A stretch of 64,000 nt of DNA, taken from Candidatus Nitrotoga sp. MKT. Lineage in GTDB: Bacteria > Pseudomonadota > Gammaproteobacteria > Burkholderiales > Gallionellaceae. The stretch lies in assembly GCA_003402345.1 (NCBI GenBank), contig QFXH01000001.1:310001-374000 (forward strand). The letters run 5' to 3'. Under the pieces are notes generated by a model. That model worked only from the letters and a program-made list of their open reading frames with translations, was not told the origin of the DNA and did no database searches. A program made the position numbers and the translations under genes. Shown here piece after piece: positions 51,777 to 63,506 of the stretch. The first letter of the stretch is position 1; each line of letters opens with the position of its first letter.

Positions 51777-51821
51777 CTACGAACCAAGGGGACGGGCGTT
51801 TGAATCGCTCCGGCCACACCA
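51777..51821 (+). other. Orphan tRNA-Arg(ACG) 3' half, probable attachment-site scar
   Basis: 45 nt that fold exactly as the 3' half of a tRNA: anticodon loop CTACGAA (ACG), 3' anticodon stem CCAAG, variable GGGAC, T stem GGGCG/CGCTC around loop TTTGAAT, acceptor CGGCCAC, discriminator A, then CCA. Upstream bases do not complete the anticodon stem and no D arm or 5' acceptor is present, so it is not a functional gene. One T-loop change (TTTGAAT instead of TTCGAAT) suggests decay. Tyrosine recombinases often use this exact segment as att site. Confidence 0.82.
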
Positions 51822-51988: not shown

Positions 51989-53584
51989 ATGAACATTCAA
52001 ATTACAGTAAAAAATTATCGAAGCTTTAATGACGCCAATCCTTTACGAATCGATATTTGCAATGGTTTTATTGCACTAGTAGGGCCAAATAATTCGGGCA
52101 AATCTTCATGCCTAAAGTTTTTCTATGAATTACGCAATTTGTGGAGAGAGTTTTCAGGAGATACACTCGTAAACTTTTCAAATGGATCGTCGATTGTTAC
52201 TTGCCCTCACTACCTTGCTGTGGAGGATCCTGAGGAGATTTTCTGTGATGCAAATAATAGAGCGATCACCATAGAAATAAAAATTGAAAACTCAGGTATT
52301 GCCATGTCAGGATTATCTAGTATTAACCTCGTTCGTGTTTCATGTAGTCGAGATAATATGACTTCTTGGAAGTTTGAGTTTTTTCATGGAAAGGCACAAG
52401 AAATTCTCAACATACTTCCGAATAAAAATAAAGTTGATTTAATTTCAAATGGGGTTTTAAGGGTAGATAACGAACAATTTGATTTCACAGATTTAACGGA
52501 GGTGATGAGTGATCTGACTAACATGCTCTACATCGGGCCTTTCAGAAACGCAATTAATGAAGGGGCTGGAACGTATTTTGATCTTGCTATTGGGTCAGCC
52601 TTTATTTCAACATGGAATCAATGGAAGACTGGAGGCGTCAAGGCTCACAGTCGAGCCATTGAATCAATTACAGCCAATATAAGACAAATTTTCGAGTACG
52701 AAAGCCTTGAAATAAATGCTTCTGTACAGCTAAATACTCTTGCTACCTCGATCAATGGGAAGCCCTATAGGCTATCGGAATTGGGGGCCGGTTTATCACA
52801 ATTTATTATCGTGTTAGGAAATGCCGCAATAGCAAAACCATCATATATCTTAGTTGATGAACCGGAACTTCACTTGCATCCTTCTTTACAGATAGATTTT
52901 CTTACCTCTTTAGCTAGCTATGCAAGAAAAGGTGTAATTTATGCGACGCACTCAATCGGACTAGCAAGGACCACATCAGAAAAAATATATTCTTTCCAGA
53001 AAAAAGATGGATACTCGATAGTTAAAAATTTTGACCAAACGCCTAGCTATGCAGAGTTCTTAGGTGAGTTAAGCTTTTCTGCATTCAAAGAAATGGGGTG
53101 TGATCAAATTCTTTTGGTCGAGGGTATTACTGACGTAAAAGTCATCCAGCAGTTTCTTCGAAAGATGAAGAAAGATCATCGCATTGTGATACTCCCCCTA
53201 GGTGGGAATCAATTGGCCAAAGGAGGAGTTGAGCAAGAGTTAGGAGAGCTTCTGCGTCTGAGTCCCCATATTTCGGCAGTTGTAGATAGCGAGCGAAAAT
53301 CCCATAATGCAGAACCAATACAGGAGCGAACTAATTTCCAAATCACATGTAATAAATTAGGAATAGACGCATTGCTAACGGAACGACGCGCAATAGAAAA
53401 CTATCTGACAGATACGGCAATTAAATCTGTCTTTGGAAAAAAATACAAAGCACTGGAATACTACGAATCATTGAGGGATAGCGTGCTCGGGTGGAGCAAA
53501 AATGATAATTGGAAAATTGCGGGCCAAATGACATTGGCTGAAATTGAAGATACCGACTTGGGTAAATTTCTAGCGAAATTATAA
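51989..53584 (+). CDS. OLD-like AAA ATPase with C-terminal TOPRIM-like domain, candidate phage defence
   Basis: 531 residues. The N-terminal ABC-type ATPase has Walker A GPNNSGKSS (32-40), signature LGAGLSQF and Walker B ILVDEPELHLHP (D290, E291) with a downstream ATHS switch His. From about 370, ILLVEGITDVKV (E378) and AVVDSER (D433) resemble the TOPRIM Glu and Asp of OLD nucleases and DUF4435 proteins. The order ATPase then TOPRIM in one chain recalls class 1 OLD nucleases and fused AriA-AriB of PARIS. Codon use is AT-rich compared with glnE. It stands alone beside a tRNA 3' half, consistent with a transferred defence gene; activity is inferred, not shown. Confidence 0.8.
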   Translation: MNIQITVKNYRSFNDANPLRIDICNGFIALVGPNNSGKSSCLKFFYELRNLWREFSGDTLVNFSNGSSIVTCPHYLAVEDPEEIFCDANNRAITIEIKIENSGIAMSGLSSINLVRVSCSRDNMTSWKFEFFHGKAQEILNILPNKNKVDLISNGVLRVDNEQFDFTDLTEVMSDLTNMLYIGPFRNAINEGAGTYFDLAIGSAFISTWNQWKTGGVKAHSRAIESITANIRQIFEYESLEINASVQLNTLATSINGKPYRLSELGAGLSQFIIVLGNAAIAKPSYILVDEPELHLHPSLQIDFLTSLASYARKGVIYATHSIGLARTTSEKIYSFQKKDGYSIVKNFDQTPSYAEFLGELSFSAFKEMGCDQILLVEGITDVKVIQQFLRKMKKDHRIVILPLGGNQLAKGGVEQELGELLRLSPHISAVVDSERKSHNAEPIQERTNFQITCNKLGIDALLTERRAIENYLTDTAIKSVFGKKYKALEYYESLRDSVLGWSKNDNWKIAGQMTLAEIEDTDLGKFLAKL

Positions 53585-59726: not shown

Positions 59727-59989
59727 ATGCGTGACGCCGCCATCAACCTACGGGTATTACCCGAGCAACGAAATTTAATTGACCACGCTGCAACTCTGCT
59801 AGGCAAGAACCCGTTCGGACTTCATGCTCGAGGCTGCCTGCTCAGCCGCGCAGGCGGTAATACTAGACCAGTTTTTTTACCGACAAGTTTCAGCAATTCT
59901 CGGCAATGCTCGACACTCCGCCCAGCCCCAATCCAGGGCTTGAGCGCCTCATGGCCGTGACAGCTCCTTGGGCCGCAGTCAAGGCATGA
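59727..59989 (+). pseudogene. Frameshifted DUF1778 (TacA-type) antitoxin
   Basis: It starts MRDAAINLRVLPEQRNLIDHAATLLGKN, the RHH DNA-binding part of DUF1778 antitoxins. After that codon one extra base shifts the frame; RSDFMLEAAC and AQAVILDQFFYR appear in the next frame, then DKFQQFSAMLDTPPSPNPGLERLMAV after a second shift. The last frame ends at TGA 59987-59989 overlapping the toxin ATG (ATGA). At least two frameshifts mean no full antitoxin is made. Confidence 0.85.
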
Positions 59990-60480
59990 GTTTGCAACTC
60001 AACATACCTCAGCCACTTGCGACCACCCACATTCTAGATCGATTTGAGTACGGCAAGGGCGTTCTCGACGAGTGGCTTAGACGCCGCGCGATGGTCAACC
60101 AAGTGAGTGGAGCCAGCCGCACGTTTGTAGTGGCGAATCAGGACAGTCGTGTTTACGGCTAATATGCCATGGCTGCGGGCGCTGTCTCGCACCAGATAGC
60201 TACTAGTTCTATGCGCCGGAACATGCACGGTCCCGTTCCGGTGATGGTTCTGGCTCGGCTCGCGGTTGACCACCATGCCCAAGGCATTAAGCTTGGCGCA
60301 TCCTTACTGCAAGACGCCGCCAGCCGGGCTGTGGCGGTTTCTCAGAACACGGGTATCCGAGCTCTGCTGGTGCATGCACTTCACGACCGTGCCAAGGAAT
60401 TCTACGAACACTATGGTTTCCAGTCGTCGCCGTTGCATCCGATGACGTTAATGCTGAAATTGAATATCGGCAAGTCATGA
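59986..60480 (+). pseudogene. GNAT (TacT-type) toxin broken by a nonsense codon
   Basis: The reading frame MSLQLNIPQPLATTHILDRF ... SQNTGIRALLVHALHDRAKEFYEHYGFQSSPLHP is a GNAT acetyltransferase toxin, which in relatives acetylates aminoacyl-tRNA. It is interrupted by TAA at 60160-60162 (after DSRVYG, where relatives have Tyr); the same frame then continues to TGA at 60478-60480. The acetyl-CoA loop ARLAVDHHAQGIKLGASLL is still readable. With both partners damaged, the module is probably dead. Confidence 0.85.
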
Positions 60481-60504: not shown

Positions 60505-60899
60505 ATGACGCACAAACTGCCATCAAGAAACCGCTACCGTAGCACCAATCGATCGAACGCCAGCCTGGGCTATTCATCAATTACCATTCAACTTTCGACC
60601 CGCAAAGTATTTCTGATATTGGACAGCTTAAAAGTGCATCACAACAAACCCGTAAAGGCTTGGGCTGCCAAGAACGTACAGAAAGTCGAGCTATTCTATT
60701 TATCCAACTACAGCCCTGAACTCAACCCCAAAAAAAGACTAAATACAAATCTCAAGCACATCATCACTCCAAAGATGCCAGTGCGCACCAAGATGAAACT
60801 CAAAGCTACTGCATAGATCACATAACCATGCTTGAGCAAAACCCCAAACGCGTACGCCGTTATTTCGGCGATCTAAAAGTTGCCTATACGGCTTTATGA
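60505..60899 (+). pseudogene. IS630-family transposase remnant
   Basis: LILDSLKVHHNKPVKAW and VELFYLSNYSPELNPKKRLN match the DDE C-terminal half of IS630 transposases (VFLILDNLRVHHSK, YLPSYSPELNP). After TAG at about 60814 the tail continues in another frame as MLEQNPKRVRRYFGDLKVAYTAL, ending TGA 60897-60899. The N-terminal half is missing and replaced by unrelated sequence. No terminal inverted repeats found. Confidence 0.82.
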
Positions 60900-61567
60900 A
60901 TAATTCGTGTCGAATCGATAGTCAAATTGCACAGTGATGGCATCTCTCACTTTAAACCTCATTTGATCGTATCAATAAGCCATTTATTTTCAGAGTAGTA
61001 CATAAACATCTGACTCTATTTTTTCAGCCTACCTCACATTACCCTCAACTAAACATCAAAGATGCCGATAGGATTAACAAACGGAATCATCAATACGTTC
61101 GCCAACACAGTGTTCAACTTATATCGAATAGTGACCAAAAAATCCTAAATTGTCTCTACACACAAACCAATGACTTAGATAATAAAACAATTCTGCACCG
61201 CTACAAGGCTCTATATCTGGCTCCTCAACTTAGGCTTGAACCAAGGACCTGCGGATTAACAAAAATAGCCATCCTGAAAGCTATGTATCCAAAGTAAATT
61301 GCACTACTGTACTGTAACACTTAAAAAACAATAAGCTATGCATGGTTTACCCCGATCTGGGATCGAAAGAGCACCGTGAATTTTGCCGGTCAAGTGGAAC
61401 CATCCAGAGTAGTAAGTGCCCATAGAAAGCCCGGAGCAATTCGCTCAGGGCAGCGGATAGCTTGATGGGTGAAGAATGACTTAATGGTTGCATACAGCAT
61501 AAATTTATGGGATAGGTTGTGGAATTAAATTCCACGTAGATAATCGCCACGCATATATTGAGGAAAC
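60900..61567. other. Gap with tRNA-Asn 3' half
   Basis: 668 nt between the IS630 remnant and the PEP-CTERM gene. Apart from the tRNA-Asn 3' half (61218-61262) I see no gene. A minus-strand frame at 61347-61607 is unsupported. Confidence 0.4.
61218..61262 (-). other. Orphan tRNA-Asn(GTT) 3' half, probable attachment-site scar
   Basis: Read on the minus strand: anticodon loop TTGTTAA (GTT), stem TCCGC, variable AGGTC, T stem CTTGG/CTAAG around loop TTCAAGC, acceptor TTGAGGA, discriminator G, CCA. All segment lengths are exact (45 nt), but the 5' half is absent (no 5' acceptor TCCTCAA or D arm adjacent). The same anticodon-loop-to-CCA segment is the usual crossover region of tRNA-targeting integrases. 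Confidence 0.85.
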
Positions 61568-61570
61568 ATG

Positions 61571-62032
61571 ATGAAAAAAGTAATACGTTTATTTGTATCA
61601 ATTGCATTAATCCTATCGGTAACTGTAGCTAATGCAACTGTCATCAATCATAGCGCCTCAAATGAGGAAAATAAATCCAAAGAAGATACATACAAGAAAT
61701 ATAAGCTCAGAGAGGATCCCTACAAAAAACATAAATCCAAAGAAGAAGATAAGTCAAAAGAAAATAAGTCTGAATATGGCTTAGTGAGCTGTCCATCTTC
61801 GGAAAGTTGTGGGCTAGATATTCCAAAAGGAATAGATGAGCTAGGTGCCCCCCCCAAGTATGAGGACATTAAGTCAGATAATCACTGTAATGAGAAATCT
61901 CCAAATCTTTGTCAAATAAATCATGTTGATAAACTGAGCTCAATTCCAGAGCCATCGACATACGCCTTGTTTTCGATCGGAATAGTTGGCCTGATATATT
62001 TTGCAAGACGTCAAGCAAAAGTGAGAAATTGA
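61571..62032 (+). CDS. PEP-CTERM sorting-signal protein
   Basis: 153 residues from ATG 61571 (ATG 61568 is also possible; GAGGAAAC RBS). Signal peptide cut near VANA. The mature part is dominated by Lys/Glu/Ser/Tyr repeats (KSKEDTYKKYKLREDPYKKHKSKEE), then a Cys-containing middle, and ends SSIPEPSTYALFSIGIVGLIYFARRQAK: the PEP motif, hydrophobic helix and basic tail of exosortase substrates. It is probably exported to the cell surface or EPS. Exosortase itself is not in the window. Confidence 0.9.
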   Translation: MKKVIRLFVSIALILSVTVANATVINHSASNEENKSKEDTYKKYKLREDPYKKHKSKEEDKSKENKSEYGLVSCPSSESCGLDIPKGIDELGAPPKYEDIKSDNHCNEKSPNLCQINHVDKLSSIPEPSTYALFSIGIVGLIYFARRQAKVRN

Positions 62033-62108
62033 AAGAACATTTATTCAAGGCATCGGTTAGCGTGACCTTAATTAAGTTCACGCTAAATCTAAACCGCTTG
62101 AAATTGCT

Positions 62109-62117
62109 CTATTAACT
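62109..62117. repeat. Left 9-bp target-site duplication of the IS4 element
   Basis: CTATTAACT, repeated exactly at 63138-63146 on the far side of the element. Confidence 0.85.
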
Positions 62118-63137
62118 CAATAGTATCCGGTTAATTAACAAATTTAAGAGCAAAGGCTGAGTATTGGCGCGTGTTGCAGAGCAATTTATTTTGGTGCCGA
62201 TTTGAAATCAGTTTACCCATATTCCGGTTCGAGTAACTTCCAGAGATTAAACTCATCTGGAGATGAACGATGAACTTGGGCAAGACACTGTTCACGCAAC
62301 TCATGGAGTTTGTGCCGTGGATCAGCTTTGCGCGGATCGTAGATCACTATGGCGGCGATTTCAGAGTGCGCAGCTTGAGTTGCCCCGAGCAATTTCGCGC
62401 CATGGCCCTCGCGCAATTGACTTATCGCGAGAGTCTGCGCGACATCGAAACCTGTTTGCTGGCAAATCAAACGAAACTGTACAGCATGGGCTTTAATTCG
62501 CCGATCAGACGGTCAACACTGGCCGATGCCAACGAAGGGCGCGACTGGCGTATTTAGGTGAACTTGGCCGCCTTGCTCACCCGGCGTGTGCGTAAAACGT
62601 ACTGGATATGTTGCCTATCGAAGCCATGGATGCGCACAGGGTGTATTCGATGCTAACCGACCGGAACACCGGCATCATCTGCGATCAGCGCATCGCGATG
62701 AACGGTTTCTACATCTCGCAGGATTATCCCGAGCAGTTGTGACGCATCCGTTTCAAAGACCTGGAATCCGGCAAGACATGATGTTCCTGACCAACAACAC
62801 CGCCTTGCCCGCATTGACCATTGCCGCACTGTACAAAAGCCGCTGGCAAGTCGAGTTGTTCTCAAACAGCATCTGCGCATCAAGCGTTTCATCGGCAACA
62901 GGGAAAATGCGATGAAAACGCAAATCTGGTGCGCTGTCGCTGCTTACGTGCTGATTGCCATTATCAAAAAGGAGCTTCAACTTGATGCCTCTCTCTATTC
63001 TTTGCTACAGATTTTATCGGTGTCTGTTTTTGAGAAAGTCCAGCTATCTCAAGCCTTCGCAGGCAGTGGGCAGCTCCAAAATCAAACGGATTTTTATAAC
63101 CAACTAAATTTGTTCGACTTTTAACCGGACACTACTG
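62118..63137. mobile_element. IS4-family element, internally deleted
   Basis: 1020 bp bounded by inverted ends: left CAATAGTATCCGGTTAA (62118-62134) and right, read inward, CAGTAGTGTCCGGTTAA, 15 of 17 identical. A perfect 9-bp duplication CTATTAACT flanks both ends (62109-62117, 63138-63146), showing it arrived by transposition. The transposase inside is broken and shorter than the usual roughly 1.1-kb gene, so it is a dead copy unless helped in trans. Confidence 0.88.
62270..63124 (+). pseudogene. IS4-family transposase, frameshifted and internally deleted
   Basis: N-terminal part 62270-62557: MNLGKTLFTQLMEFVPWISFARIV ... FRAMALAQLTYRESLRDIETC, ending in TAG after GRDWRI. Middle fragments in shifting frames include NGFYISQDYPEQL and VFLTNNTALPALTIAALYKSRWQVELF. 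The C-terminal LRIKRFIGNRENAMKTQIWCAVAAYVLIAI ... LNLFDF ends at TAA 63122-63124. Several frame changes and a missing central DDE stretch. Confidence 0.88.
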
Positions 63138-63146
63138 CTATTAACT
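63138..63146. repeat. Right 9-bp target-site duplication of the IS4 element
   Basis: CTATTAACT, identical to 62109-62117. Confidence 0.85.
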
Positions 63147-63506
63147 ATATGTTTATAATTATTTATAGTTAATAGATACTTTCGATAATTTTATCAAGAT
63201 TGATACTGAACGCCACACATAAGTTTGACACCGGTGTAGCAGCGAAACCATGGGAGTCTCCATACAGTCTCAGAATGATCCAGAACAATCCGTAGGTGGC
63301 GGTATATGCACACCCGACCACGCTTGGAATAATAGCTTTGCAAGGTAGAATAGTTTTCACCTGCATCTTCCCAGAACAACTTCTGCAAACCTGCACTATC
63401 TACAGGAATAAAACACGCTAGCAATGCATGCGTAGCCTACCTAATTTTATTTTTTACAGTTAAACGTCCCCCGGCAAAACCAGAGGTAATTTAACTGCTT
63501 TTAAAT
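63147..63506. other. Gap after IS4 element, no gene seen
   Basis: 360 nt. Two overlapping minus-strand frames (63169-63396, 63194-63424) lack an RBS and any recognisable motif. I see nothing else. Confidence 0.4.

Follow-up and report, generated by a model that had tools for sequence, protein, structure and literature searches.

The window analysed here is a 64-kb stretch (positions 310001-374000 of contig C1) of an unordered 23-contig draft genome of 2.7 Mb (G000). The nearest named records of its glnE were a Nitrosomonadales MAG (93%) and Candidatus Nitrotoga sp. BS (90%), records of the genome itself possibly having been omitted, and by this gene the organism groups with Candidatus Nitrotoga, very likely as a nitrite oxidiser of that type. 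The minus strand carries, at 61218-61262 and 3.5 kb downstream of nuoN, a tRNA-Asn(GTT) 3' half that runs from the anticodon loop to CCA. Downstream of the half, DNA of the kind that follows tRNA-Asn genes is kept (61029-61217, minus strand), and beyond it stands the remnant of an IS630-type (DDE_3) transposase (60505-60920, plus strand; Pfam), which ends in TA at 60919-60920. Upstream of the half is what we term the class I arm (61263-61445, minus strand), made up of an outer 34 nt, a gap of ~100 nt relative to the relatives G006, G008, and G010, and an inner part. The arm is adjoined by a gene for a PEP-CTERM protein (61568-62032, plus strand; Pfam E = 3.7e-5, over its cut-off), followed by a broken transposase remnant with DUF4372 and DDE_Tnp_1 pieces (62270-62915, plus strand; Pfam), which we take to be of IS4 type. 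The first-pass annotation, made from the sequence without database searches, had set the half between an IS630 remnant and a PEP-CTERM gene, and Pfam agrees on both neighbours.

Half, PEP-CTERM gene, and IS4-type remnant together occupy a 2.5-kb segment (60921-63420) with TA at both ends, which is absent at the corresponding joint in the relative G003. A second copy of the arm, weak and partial, was found by profile search at the 3' end of the PEP-CTERM gene (62015-62110, plus strand; E = 0.0088 and 9.9e-5 with the two arm profiles described below), and weak arm matches, on which nothing is based here, were seen at 63180-63296 with the first of the two profiles only (E = 2e-4).

On the minus strand, the GTT of the half begins at 61260 and the last A of its CCA falls at 61218. 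Over these 43 nt the half agrees with the intact tRNA-Asn of the same genome at 36 positions, and every one of the seven differences is a transition. It had been described as an exact 45-nt segment; place and strand were right, the exactness was not. Taken with its downstream DNA, the half matches the intact tRNA-Asn at E = 2.6e-13 over 81 nt and is therefore not a chance resemblance. From 61078, half included, 66% identity to the DNA after the intact tRNA-Asn extends over 187 columns, and an extra 42-column piece (61029-61070) reaches 79%; similar copies of this downstream DNA occur at other sites in the genus. ARAGORN reported zero tRNAs within the 64-kb window and Rfam zero matches at 60900-61600, even at E 10, both of which fit a decayed fragment.

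The intact tRNA-Asn(GTT) gene stands at C4:192226-192301, with a second orphan tRNA-Asn half 5.6 kb downstream of it at C4:197931. When the window half was searched with its flanks against its own genome, exactly two other places were matched (E 0.001), both on C4: the upstream arm is common to the C4:197931 half, and the downstream DNA is common to the intact tRNA-Asn. Beyond these two places, no partner end for the window half was found in the genome at E 0.001. The 5.6-kb stretch on C4 carries a broken rve-type transposase, an SBF-family transporter, and an EF-hand gene, and no tyrosine integrase was found between the intact gene and the C4:197931 half. PF00589 integrases were detected at eight places in the genome (E 0.001), with zero on C1 or C4, so the C4 stretch is island-like DNA at tRNA-Asn without a recognised integrase. 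As to the features expected of an island end, the cognate full tRNA-Asn(gtt) is present on C4, and the window half is a displaced 3' fragment from anticodon loop to CCA. An order and orientation with the island lying between the two is seen for C4:197931 and not for the window half, which is on C1 while the tRNA is on C4; a tyrosine integrase within the element was likewise not seen. The first-pass annotation had proposed finding an intact tRNA-Asn gene, which C4 supplies together with a 3' half for comparison (36/43), and looking beyond 64 kb for an integrase and a second copy at the other border; neither turned up, at E 0.001 in the genome for the copy or as PF00589 on C1 for the integrase.

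Across the genus, the tRNA-Asn half as a query matched 31 of 41 genomes (own genome included), many of the matches being plain tRNA-Asn genes. G001, given as 99% complete, gave no match to the half at E 0.001, perhaps through an assembly gap or divergence. Layouts were compared at 28 sites in nine genomes (G015:C138 left out, G006:1999198 added), which divide into eight intact tRNA-Asn genes, seven halves with the class I arm, ten halves with other upstream DNA, and three sites with downstream DNA only. The class I arm is thus joined to a half at a quarter of the sites (7/28) and in 6/9 genomes (G003, G006, G008, G010, G018, and twice in G000). The outer 34 nt of the window arm share 22-25 positions with each of the six other class I arms, against a maximum of 14 for the arms at the other 21 sites; when the window arm was shuffled 10,000 times, the best score over the 27 arms in fixed register was 22 once and 23 never. 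An arm profile built without the window recovered its inner arm (61294-61445) at E = 2.1e-9, and a second profile, from which G018 and G015 had also been removed, did so at 1.2e-7; G010:C40, of doubtful orientation, was excluded from both. As a single query at E 0.001, the G010 arm did not recover the window arm, its sole match in G000 being on C4, and it located arm sequence in 8 of 19 genus genomes. The element-side flank is hence conserved at the same junction elsewhere, and the arm also occurs without a half.

Eight of the ten halves with other upstream DNA also start with GTTAAT, as is expected of repeated integration at one point. To judge from these layouts, tRNA-Asn has served repeatedly as an island site within the genus. 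What is less ordinary here is that several types of upstream DNA are found at one tRNA-Asn, one of them linked to PEP-CTERM gene ends, and that the class I stretches inspected are without a recognised integrase. In G008, an integrase gene (1123902-1124363) does stand beside the intact tRNA-Asn (1123686-1123761); for the class I island of that genome, a Pfam scan of 10 of the 17 listed frames (>=110 aa) gave no site-specific recombinase, only an IS1595-type transposase. Separately, G006 has a pair of tRNA-Asn halves in inverted orientation 7 kb apart (C1:1985020 and 1992017), both preceded by identical DNA of a non-class-I kind, within a 40-kb stretch with several halves.

The sequence of the arm points to PEP-CTERM genes. 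Read away from the half, its outer motif encodes an LKNRKK-kind tail at eight places, six of them beside a half and two not (G006:2068710 and G009:C21), and in G018:C15 and G015:C204 this motif forms the end of the open frame of a PEP-CTERM-like gene. These make 10 places in all for a pattern drawn from one arm, against an expectation of 0.06 that assumes equal base composition and is therefore a rough guide. The two genes were recognised by their translated PEP-CTERM motif and by DNA similarity to the window gene rather than by Pfam, and in both genomes (G018, C15; G015, C204) the PEP-CTERM segment lies beside the arm but without a tRNA half. The window arm is without the LKNRKK-kind motif, whose position falls inside the ~100-nt gap. 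Arm sequence without a half was seen at G006:2068555, G009:C21, G010:C40, G018:C15, and G015:C204. By eye, the G009 arm precedes the right flank known from the C4 half, and so a half has probably been lost there. Because the arm is tied to PEP-CTERM gene ends also away from halves, a simple reading of the arm as an element end is weakened; despite these cases, a fixed arm-half junction stands at seven sites.

We take the window half to be a displaced, decayed mobile-element end of tRNA-Asn type rather than a plain tRNA pseudogene, with a probability of roughly 0.8. A mobile element would have recombined with the tRNA-Asn(GTT) gene at the anticodon loop, presumably by means of a tyrosine recombinase, and the gene's own 3' half, with its downstream DNA, would have been displaced to the distal end of the element, remaining joined there to the class I arm as the element's terminus. 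The element itself would since have gone, and a rearrangement or an IS-mediated move would have parted its end from the tRNA gene. The enzyme is assumed, since no integrase was found on C1 or C4 and no site-specific recombinase in the scanned frames of the G008 island. Whether the half should be written as attP, with element DNA on both sides, was also considered; on these sequences it is indistinguishable from attR, because the downstream DNA is common to intact genes and to halves with several kinds of upstream DNA. A gene for a PD-(D/E)XK nuclease, which follows the C4 half in G000 and a class I half in G003:C36 (the tRNA-Asn of that genome being on C35), was considered as a fixed far flank of the tRNA-Asn site and rejected, being far from tRNA-Asn in G006 and G008.

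An improbable origin is a tRNA-Asn gene formerly present at this place whose 5' half was deleted without any mobile element being involved. Such a deletion in place would account for the downstream DNA retained with the half, and the seven differences, as transitions throughout, look like slow decay; however, the 5' half has been replaced by the class I arm found at six other sites with the same anticodon-loop joint, and independent deletions would not yield the same arm at the same joint. Direct insertion of an element at this place through a secondary attachment site is a somewhat poorer candidate still. Half and arm are both present, and sites of the tRNA-Asn family do occur in the own genome, but an insertion of this kind would not bring tRNA-Asn-type downstream DNA on the chromosome side, and there is neither a matching copy at another border nor an integrase on the contig. 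That the half serves as part of a split tRNA or as a small RNA is very improbable, for although pairing in its T stem, as read from the sequences, could be retained through a C-G to T-A exchange, an intact tRNA-Asn exists, where a split tRNA would have two halves in trans and no intact gene, and ARAGORN and Rfam gave zero matches at the half.

For the displaced element end, a rearrangement around tRNA-Asn and nuoN is a likelier route to its present place than IS-mediated arrival, and we put it at a little short of even odds. In four of the five relatives with both genes on one contig, tRNA-Asn lies downstream of nuoN in the same orientation, at a distance of 21 kb in G006, 17 kb in both G007 and G008, and 36 kb in G018; in the fifth, G005, the tRNA-Asn match is 31 kb from nuoN on the other side and in opposite orientation. 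The window half stands downstream of nuoN in the same orientation as in the first four. In these same four, a 10.6-kb block (compared by matches of >=150 nt) ends in tRNA-Asn, and that block sits on C4 in the own genome. A half near nuoN and the 10.6-kb block on C4 together fit a rearrangement that removed the tRNA and left the island end behind.

Alternatively, the half may have been the passenger of an IS-mediated event (60921-63420) that copied it from a tRNA-Asn island elsewhere, in which case it would be no sign of an old tRNA-Asn locus here, a route that we hold to be quite possible though short of probable. It is precisely 60921-63420 that is missing at the G003 joint, where the TA of the IS630-type remnant joins directly to the sequence after the TA at window 63419-63420, with TA at both joints. 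IS630-type remnants moreover recur close to tRNA-Asn halves, or to the DNA downstream of these, at several places in G006 and also in G003:C59. In G009, glnE and nuoN are 6 kb apart with no half in between, which, along with the G003 joint, suggests that the half may be a late arrival. On the other hand, visual inspection of the segment's ends showed no terminal inverted repeats, and G003 would look identical had it undergone a deletion starting at the IS end; the absence of the 2.5 kb in G003 may thus be a deletion there or a late arrival in the own genome. Nor is G003 a simple empty site: its glnE lies ~48 kb away, on the opposite side of nuoN, so more than one kind of reshuffling has taken place in the region. 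The position of the IS630-type remnant with respect to the half is not the same in G006, which counts against the IS-mediated route and led us to reject the more particular idea of an IS630-type remnant travelling with the half.

A wider reading of the displaced end would have integrase-less elements at tRNA-Asn genus-wide, with an end derived from the 3' end of a PEP-CTERM gene, and the halves acting as repeats that rearrange the part of the chromosome between nuoN, tRNA-Asn, and glnE. Such repeats would be the tRNA halves present in several copies and in both orientations, and this reading is offered as speculative and rather unlikely.

A second scar, the 3' half of a tRNA-Arg(ACG) gene, lies beside glnE at 51777-51821 (plus strand). 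On C3, tRNA-Arg(ACG) is represented by an intact gene at 141677, an integrase at 141878, and a further half at 150432. The window tRNA-Arg half has a counterpart next to glnE in G010 and is therefore probably older than the own genome. As both tRNAs have an intact gene and a downstream half elsewhere in the genome, on C4 and C3, at least two separate events are called for, and by these comparisons the two scars are independent and not the borders of one block. That the halves derive from different tRNAs and record at least two integrations had been claimed from the start and is borne out. The accompanying proposal of an integration hotspot or of nested islands at this place did not hold up: no partner was found at E 0.001, no PF00589 integrase lies on C1 or C4, and more than half of the block also lies by glnE in some relatives. 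The hotspot is the tRNA-Asn gene, from which the window half is displaced.

Genes for EF-hand, BON, CsbD, and glycine-zipper proteins fill 54.1-59.3 kb, more than half of the block between the scars, and this part stands beside glnE in three of the six checkable relatives (G003; G009, to 58.1 kb; G018, in part) and not in G007, G008, or G010. G006 is outside this count, as just 1.4 kb after glnE was compared. A single island bounded by the two halves (51.8-61.3 kb) was accordingly rejected, given that more than half of the block is beside glnE in G003 and G009 and partly so in G018; the block varies among species and is unbounded by the two halves. Within it, a gene for an AAA_15/AAA_21 ATPase, which we take to be OLD/AbiEii-like, lies in DNA of lower GC at 51989-53584 and had no match among the compared stretches of relatives. 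On the far side of the block, at 59968-60480, is a small gene pair with a GNAT acetyltransferase, possibly a toxin-antitoxin system, as we presume from resemblance; the pair is found beside glnE in G003, G009, and G018, with two copies in G003.

Cis-mobilizable elements (CIMEs) are segments with recognisable att-like ends and no integrase. The C4 island is alike in having att-like ends and no integrase found; unlike the case of CIMEs, a helper element bearing class I ends did not come to light. Among the titles and abstract openings listed for Nitrotoga, for islands and tRNA in Nitrosomonas, and for tRNA fragments and CIMEs, none concerned tRNA-Asn islands in this genus. Island ends marked by displaced 3' tRNA fragments are a standard finding in the account given of Islander (PMC4383910). 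Like the window half, the tDNA fragments outlined there are 3' tRNA pieces cut in the anticodon loop, with a flank on the element side and a cognate full tRNA in the genome, whereas here the fragment and its tRNA are on different contigs, neither of which has an integrase; the Islander filters, as outlined there, would probably reject it. In the Arg-TCT case of Thermococcus kodakarensis, as summarised in PMC9897764, a partial tRNA copy was parted from the full gene by an inversion, at ~179 kb. That case is alike in presenting an attR-type fragment away from its tRNA after rearrangement, but there, on the same summary, a prophage and a relative show the step, whereas the route proposed here is drawn from neighbours in mostly draft genomes.

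The displaced end belongs to an already known kind of scar and mainly hints at a rearranged region; it places one more displaced island end and is otherwise ordinary. Leftover tRNA-Asn halves of this sort can mislead island callers and tRNA annotation, and two nearby orphan halves need not border one island. Elsewhere in the genome, at G000:C6:137709-164946, two weak 20-nt tRNA-like matches are separated by 27 kb and have an integrase gene immediately within; they perhaps mark another tRNA island.
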